Source of the DNA: Deltaproteobacteria bacterium | GTDB lineage: Bacteria > Desulfobacterota > Dissulfuribacteria > Dissulfuribacterales > QOAL01 | Assembly (NCBI GenBank): GCA_015489315.1 | Contig: WFZZ01000230.1 | Span: 1 to 34,825 of the forward strand | Reading direction: 5' to 3' | DNA length: 34,825 nt | Part shown: in pieces, positions 23,385 through 24,509 of the stretch | Numbering within the stretch: the first letter of the stretch is position 1 | Layout of the letters: each line of letters starts with the position of its first letter | Notes under the pieces: model-generated | The model's input: only the letters and a program-made list of their open reading frames with translations | Database searches by the model: none | What the model was told of the DNA's origin: nothing | Program-made: the position numbers and the translations under genes

Positions 23385-23822
23385 CTATTTCCAGCTGACA
23401 ATATCGGCATCCTCTCCTTCACCGCCTTCCTGACCGTCTCTCCCATAACTGTAAAGATCATAGTCCCCATGTTCACCCGGACTTTTATAAACATAATCTC
23501 TTCCCCAAGGATCCTTTGGGACAGGCTTTGGAAGATATGGGCCAGACCAGTTTGGAAGATCATCGGGTTTTTCCCGAAGGGCTTGAAGTCCTTCTTCAGT
23601 GGCCGGATATCGACCATTATCAAGTCTAAATTCATCAAGTGCCTGTCCCAAAAGTTCAATTTGGGCCTTGGCAGTTTTTTGTTTGCTTGCGCTCAGTTTT
23701 TTAAAAAATTTTGGTGCCACTAAAGAGGCCAAGAGCCCAATAATTATGACGACTACCAATAATTCTATTAAGGTAAACCCTTTTTTATTTAAAACTTTAT
23801 TCTTTTGTCGCTTCTTAAGCAT
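23385..23822 (-). CDS. gspG: Type II secretion major pseudopilin GspG
   Basis: KKGFTLIELLVVVIIIGLLASLVAPKFF; NGRYPATEEGLQAL; DPWGRDYVYKSPGEHGDYDLYSYGRDGQEGGEGEDADI; SD ggag before ATG. Confidence 0.96.
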   Translation of the reverse strand: MLKKRQKNKVLNKKGFTLIELLVVVIIIGLLASLVAPKFFKKLSASKQKTAKAQIELLGQALDEFRLDNGRYPATEEGLQALREKPDDLPNWSGPYLPKPVPKDPWGRDYVYKSPGEHGDYDLYSYGRDGQEGGEGEDADIVSWK

Positions 23823-23936: not shown

Positions 23937-23955
23937 ATTGAATCATCATTCATTT
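23937..23955. repeat. Direct repeat copy 1: ATTGAATCATCATTCATTT (core TGAAT-N4-ATTCA)
   Basis: Identical 19 nt to 24095-24113; lies just upstream of a -35-like TTGACT. Confidence 0.85.
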
Positions 23956-23959
23956 TTTC

Positions 23960-23988
23960 TTGACTTTCCTATTTTAAAGTGATATTTT
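23960..23988 (+). promoter_or_regulatory. Candidate sigma70 promoter TTGACT-N17-TATTTT for the nuo operon
   Basis: TTGACT 23960-23965, 17-nt spacer, TATTTT 23983-23988. Confidence 0.5.
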
Positions 23989-23992
23989 TCAC
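23979..23992. promoter_or_regulatory. GTGA-N6-TCAC palindrome resembling a CRP/FNR-superfamily site
   Basis: gtgatatttttcac; half-sites 23979-23982 and 23989-23992. Confidence 0.4.
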
Positions 23993-24016
23993 GTAGCTTA
24001 ATTTAAAAAATATAAT
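23988..24016 (+). promoter_or_regulatory. Alternative candidate promoter TTCACG-N17-TATAAT for the nuo operon
   Basis: Perfect TATAAT at 24011-24016 with TTCACG at 23988-23993. Confidence 0.4.
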
Positions 24017-24094
24017 ATTTTTCGCAACTTTTAGGCTTTGTTTTATTTTGCTGCCAAAAATTTTTGTTGATTTGCTGGGCGGTTTGTGATAGAC

Positions 24095-24113
24095 ATTGAA
24101 TCATCATTCATTT
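24095..24113. repeat. Direct repeat copy 2: ATTGAATCATCATTCATTT
   Basis: Identical to 23937-23955; about 30 nt before the nuoA start. Confidence 0.85.
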
Positions 24114-24128
24114 CAGCCCTTCGGCTGA
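24113..24128 (+). other. Short hairpin TCAGCC-CTTC-GGCTGA directly before the nuoA SD
   Basis: 6-bp perfect stem, 4-nt loop, followed by gaggagg and ATG at 24144. Confidence 0.5.
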
Positions 24129-24143
24129 GAGAGGAGGAAGGGC

Positions 24144-24509
24144 ATGATGAGCGGTTTTGAAACCATCGTCATGTATCTCGGGATGTCATTGCTAGTTGTA
24201 CTGGCAATGATTGGTATTTCGGCTGCCCTCGGTCCATTCAGGCCAAAGCCAAGAAAGGCTACCACCTATGAATGTGGTGTTCCGCTTCTCGATCCTGCAG
24301 AAAAAAGATATGATGTAAAATATTATCTTGTTGCAGTCCTTTTTCTCGTCTTCGATCTTGAAACAGTTCTCATTTATCCAATAGCTGTCAGGTACAAGGC
24401 CCTTGCTCATATAGGATGGGGAGTGTTTTTTGAGGTTTTTATATTTGTGGCCGTGTTGCTGGCAGGTCTGTTATACGCAATTAAGAAACGCGCCATTGAA
24501 TGGGAGTAG
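24144..24509 (+). CDS. nuoA: Complex I subunit NuoA
   Basis: KATTYECGVPLLDPAEKRYDVKYYLVAVLFLVFDLETVLIYPIAV. Confidence 0.95.
   Translation: MMSGFETIVMYLGMSLLVVLAMIGISAALGPFRPKPRKATTYECGVPLLDPAEKRYDVKYYLVAVLFLVFDLETVLIYPIAVRYKALAHIGWGVFFEVFIFVAVLLAGLLYAIKKRAIEWE

Follow-up and report, generated by a model that had tools for sequence, protein, structure and literature searches.

The region upstream of the complex I operon studied here carries the same 19-mer twice, which raises the question of which protein would recognize these copies and whether they form a local switch or part of a wider regulatory system. The stretch of DNA analysed, hereafter the window, has 34,825 nucleotides and comes from a 2.4-Mb assembly in 266 contigs, from an uncultured relative of Dissulfurimicrobium whose order, in the Desulfobacterota, would be the one of Dissulfuribacter and Dissulfurimicrobium. 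With a probability of about 0.77, both copies serve as operators for a FadR-like TetR regulator, conserved across the order, that would repress nuo together with sulfur and energy operons.

Organization of the nuoA upstream region

The 19-mer ATTGAATCATCATTCATTT is present in two exact copies on the plus strand, at 23937-23955 and 24095-24113, with their starts 158 bp apart, and each copy contains the dyad TGAAT-N4-ATTCA. Allowing up to three mismatches, these two copies were the only matches in the window, while shuffled sequence is expected to give 0.04 per window. The first copy is followed after 4 bases by TTGACT at 23960, and a weaker TTGATT-N17-TAGACA at 24067-24095 overlaps the start of the second. 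The initial annotation had described the two copies with their dyad and the promoter-like elements beside them, and all of these were found as claimed. The features of the region are the following:

23385..23822, minus strand: gspG, divergent gene for a pseudopilin of type II secretion, unlikely to be a target on the linkage comparison
23937..23955, unstranded: putative operator 1 (distal), ATTGAATCATCATTCATTT, with the core TGAATCATCATTCA at 23939-23952
23960..23988, plus strand: likely promoter P1 of nuo, TTGACT (23960-23965), 17 nt, TATTTT (23983-23988), from consensus and conservation
24067..24095, plus strand: likely promoter P2 of nuo, TTGATT (24067-24072), 17 nt, TAGACA (24090-24095), read by eye
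24095..24113, unstranded: putative operator 2 (proximal), the same ATTGAATCATCATTCATTT, with the core at 24097-24110
24144..24509, plus strand: nuoA, which opens the nuo (complex I) operon, with the RBS at about 24130-24138

In both likely promoters a TG lies one base 5' of the −10 hexamer. In each of the 14 listed genomes that have a distal site, a −35 of the TTGAC(A/T) type (TTGATT in one case) was found 5–9 nt past the distal core, and a P2-like layout (TTGATT or similar, 17 nt ending in TGN, and TAnnnn) lies just 5' of the proximal site in relatives of genera g1 and g4. The extended form TGAATGAAT-N4-ATTCA, typical of the tetR gene described below, is also seen at some of the distal nuo sites. 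The proximal site is located at −46 to −63 of nuoA in 15/30 genomes, and in the window the core of operator 2 ends 33 nt 5' of the nuoA ATG. The nuo region is likely to have two tandem promoters, with site 1 abutting the −35 of P1 and site 2 covering the +1 of P2. As the predicted P2 stops just before the proximal site, operator 2 would be placed at +1, and this position over the expected start argues for P2 being repressed. For operator 1, near −50 of P1, either repression or activation would fit.

A hairpin (CAGCC-CTTC-GGCTG, 24114-24127) is found just 5' of the nuoA RBS, and relatives seem to have similar stems made of other letters; an Rfam scan of the window gave no match. A diverged second nuoA-like gene (44% identity) was also observed at G000:C161:3076-3339 and in other genomes of the genus.

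Occurrence of the dyad in the genome and in relatives

In the genome of the window, the exact dyad TGAATNNNNATTCA was counted 22 times and its reversed pattern once. The looser form TGAAYNNNNRTTCA (TGAAY-N4-RTTCA) occurs 28 times versus 4 for its reverse, and was in excess in the 10 genomes tested. Of these 28 sites, 22 are intergenic. The dyad is a recurrent element of the genome, not merely a local repeat.

The upstream regions (350 bp, 30 for each gene) of nuoA, dsrC and one TetR gene were gathered from relatives by orthology and not by the motif. TGAAY-N4-RTTCA was present in 21/30 regions of nuoA, 25/30 of dsrC and 29/30 of tetR, counts that are not independent because the relatives, which represent several families, share kinship. 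The remaining nine nuoA regions had no exact site. Nine control patterns (reversed, with permuted arms or with other spacers) gave 0–1/30. The exception was the N8 spacer, which was found in 27/30 tetR regions and four nuoA regions because the boxes there are extended (TGAATGAAY-N4-RTTCA). Upstream regions of sat carried the site in 5 of 11 cases.

The divergent gsp operon had been proposed as a second target of the two copies. This was not supported: among the genomes examined, the two genes are neighbours in this species and its nearest relative alone, and elsewhere the sites stay with nuoA without gspG. The gsp operon was therefore rejected as a target.

A FadR-like TetR protein as candidate regulator

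Among the clusters of genes that carry a site, one codes for a protein with TetR_N and TetR_C_4 (YsiA-like) domains. It was found in 40/46 genomes of the order, mostly with 73–91% identity and one match of just 47%, and relatives at E <= 1e-55 were present in 80 of the 297 genomes drawn from the phylum. Its best relatives of solved structure are those of Bacillus FadR (E 2.7e-37), with which the recognition helix VADGTIYLYF is identical. Against the NCBIfam FadR model NF053878 it scored 183.1 bits (E 4.5e-54), under the equivalog cut-off of 200 bits, and for this reason we call it FadR-like and not FadR.

In much of the order the tetR promoter consists of TTGACA, about 17 nt and a TATAAT-like hexamer, directly followed by the operator over the expected +1. 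This layout would be the usual arrangement of autorepression, and the palindrome over its own promoter together with the TetR_N domain is what is found in TetR operator/regulator pairs. At the phylum level, 21/22 tetR upstream regions contained an 18-bp TGAA-N10-TTCA box, mostly similar to TGAATGA-N4-TCATTCA, and within the order the N8 palindrome is present at the 27 tetR loci mentioned above. A pair of 14-mers shifted by 4 bp against each other is one possible reading of the 18-mer. Since the autoregulatory box also holds the N8 palindrome, the 14-mer is a putative binding unit of TetR.

The tetR gene is absent from the assembly of the window's own genome. Regions homologous to the tetR flanks of G005 run out to the ends of contigs C92 and C149 in this assembly, so that the place of the gene falls in a gap, and its presence in this genome is inferred from the relatives. 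Comparative evidence makes this protein the best candidate to bind the nuo sites. The initial annotation had suggested a dimeric repressor with operators of TetR-like form and had found no regulator identifiable in the window; both points agree with our results, the protein being conserved with the same dyad at its own gene. In G021, the frame matching TetR (L305, G021:C3:11042-11623) shows one in-frame TAG.

Genes associated with the sites

Genes adjacent to the sites were clustered across several genomes and named by Pfam and NCBIfam, targets coming from a single genome being weaker evidence than clustered ones. Respiratory genes were represented by nuoA, cytochrome c3 and other multihaem cytochromes, an NrfD-type membrane protein and ATP-synthase genes; in family f2 the site is 5' of a small protein resembling the same cytochrome c3. 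The sulfur genes were dsrA, dsrC, that of an RsbRD_N protein immediately 5' of dsrM, sat and a manganese pyrophosphatase, as well as a sulfur-transport (YeeE-type) protein with a divergent M16 peptidase. Carbon metabolism contributed acetyl-CoA synthetase, formate-THF ligase, FolD and a subunit of pyruvate:ferredoxin oxidoreductase, and glutamate synthase was a further target. The operons reached in this way are dsrAB, dsrMKJOP and Wood-Ljungdahl genes, besides nuo, dsrC, sat and ATP synthase. No fatty-acid degradation gene was among the targets of the part of the sites that was annotated.

The initial annotation had envisaged a dimeric repressor binding twice at nuo. The two sites at nuo were maintained, and in place of a local switch there is an apparent genome-wide regulon of energy and sulfur metabolism; the finding is real and larger than first described.

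Comparison with known regulators

Bacillus FadR is released by long-chain acyl-CoA and represses beta-oxidation genes, and its box is an 18-bp sequence of the TGAATGA-N4-(T/A)CATTCA type. The TetR protein of the order shares with it full-length homology (E about 1e-37; YsiA structures 3WHB, 3WHC and 1VI0, and 5GP9 and 5GPC of B. halodurans), the recognition helix, the TetR_C_4 ligand domain, the TGAAT...ATTCA arms and an 18-bp box of this type at the gene of the regulator itself, as expected of a Bacillus-type FadR. However, the targets sampled here are sulfur, respiratory and autotrophy genes in place of beta-oxidation genes, and the shorter 14-mer is the prevailing type of site. In Sulfolobus acidocaldarius, a single dimer of the TetR-family FadR occupies one operator, and two overlapping dimers occupy the protein's own operator (PMC6449355). 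These binding modes offer a fair model for the 14-mer of the targets versus the extended box at tetR, although that protein is archaeal and acts locally, on a fatty-acid gene cluster that has four sites (PMC6449355). PsrA and FadP are proteobacterial TetR fatty-acid regulators, and the PsrA regulon of Shewanellaceae has come to include TCA-cycle operons, which is a precedent for rewiring; they belong to another subfamily, and the portion of that report considered here describes no sulfur-dissimilation targets (PMC5343134).

The regulation of the dissimilatory sulfur pathway is, to our knowledge, little known beyond Rex at sat in Desulfovibrio. The Rex box is TTGTGAA-N4-TTCACAA. A Rex operator was rejected for our sites because its expected core is TGAA-N4-TTCA whereas they are TGAA-N6-TTCA; the N2-spacer pattern TGAAY-RTTCA, equivalent to TGAA-N4-TTCA, was found in 0–1/30 upstream regions. 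As a redox regulator repressing sat in Desulfovibrio vulgaris (PMC7531388), Rex resembles the candidate in tying sulfate reduction to energy state, but it belongs to another family and its box differs in both arms and spacing. No earlier description of a TetR/FadR regulator of dissimilatory sulfur genes was found in the open-access literature searched, which covered few subscription papers.

Proposed mechanism and alternative explanations

The sites, their conservation, the targets they share and the site at the TetR gene are read directly from the sequences. According to the mechanism that we propose, a TetR dimer would bind the 14-bp palindrome TGAAY-N4-RTTCA, with one dimer directly 5' of the P1 −35 and another over the P2 start, so that both tandem nuo promoters could be controlled. 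The same protein would control its own gene as well as dsrAB, dsrC, dsrMKJOP, sat, the pyrophosphatase, cytochromes c, ATP synthase and Wood-Ljungdahl enzymes. The sites at +1 in tetR and P2 suggest that it would act mainly by repression, and acyl-CoA may release it, as in Bacillus FadR. That an acyl-CoA sensor of the FadR type has been rewired to govern, as master regulator, dissimilatory sulfur metabolism together with complex I, ATP synthase and carbon fixation is a more tentative proposal, to which we give somewhat less than even odds. If true, in the sulfur-disproportionating and sulfate-reducing order around Dissulfurimicrobium, lipid or acyl-CoA status would set the level of energy genes, which suggests the redeployment of a fatty-acid regulator to energy metabolism. 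For a group with cultured members (Dissulfurimicrobium hydrothermale), the analysis provides a specific candidate protein, a defined predicted operator and a set of putative target promoters.

The same TetR protein might instead be mainly an activator, or act through a loop between the nuo sites, which we consider unlikely. Operator 1 is centred near −50 of P1, and in several genomes the dsrC site lies about 40–41 nt before a −10-like hexamer, that is, near −60, a position that would also fit activation and hence dual action. When the sites were pooled, no single fixed position of the promoter with respect to them emerged, but a mixture. The distance from operator to −35, however, varies between 5 and 9 nt, and the sites of tetR and P2 cover +1. 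Regarding the loop, suggested earlier from the two copies, the 158 bp of the window correspond to 15.05 turns, but the distance between nuo sites in relatives ranges from 119 to 172 bp (11.3–16.4 turns) and the phase is not shared, which argues against helically phased looping. A different binder is improbable: a regulator of the CRP/FNR or ArsR/SmtB type would recognize the sites and control the TetR gene, TetR binding only its own N8 box. The arrangement TGAA-N6-TTCA is like that of ArsR/SmtB operators and shares its register with FNR/CprK boxes, so the half-site geometry is similar, and both families are present in 10/10 genomes. Nevertheless, none of the CRP/FNR or ArsR loci examined carried the exact site and no single orthologue stands out as present throughout with it, as TetR does, and these candidates were dropped.

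That the 19-mer repeat is a recent local duplication devoid of function is hardly credible. The copies are identical, spacer included, only in this species and its nearest relative, but both positions are kept in more distant relatives with differing spacer letters, and unrelated operons also show an excess of the motif in their upstream regions. An explanation by LexA boxes (GAAC-N4-GTTC) is very improbable too. TGAAY-N4-RTTCA includes TGAACATTTGTTCA, which is found at the lexA promoter in two genomes (L224 and L233); however, the fifth position is T, not C, in the nuo sites and in 86% of the pooled half-sites, and the targets are energy genes and not SOS genes. A LexA box would account only for the TGAAC-N4-GTTCA form at lexA and was rejected for the remaining sites. 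In lexA genes of this genus, TGAACATTTGTTCA or its reverse complement near the start (L224:1507-1520, and L233) is similar in form to the FadR-like site and could confuse motif scans.
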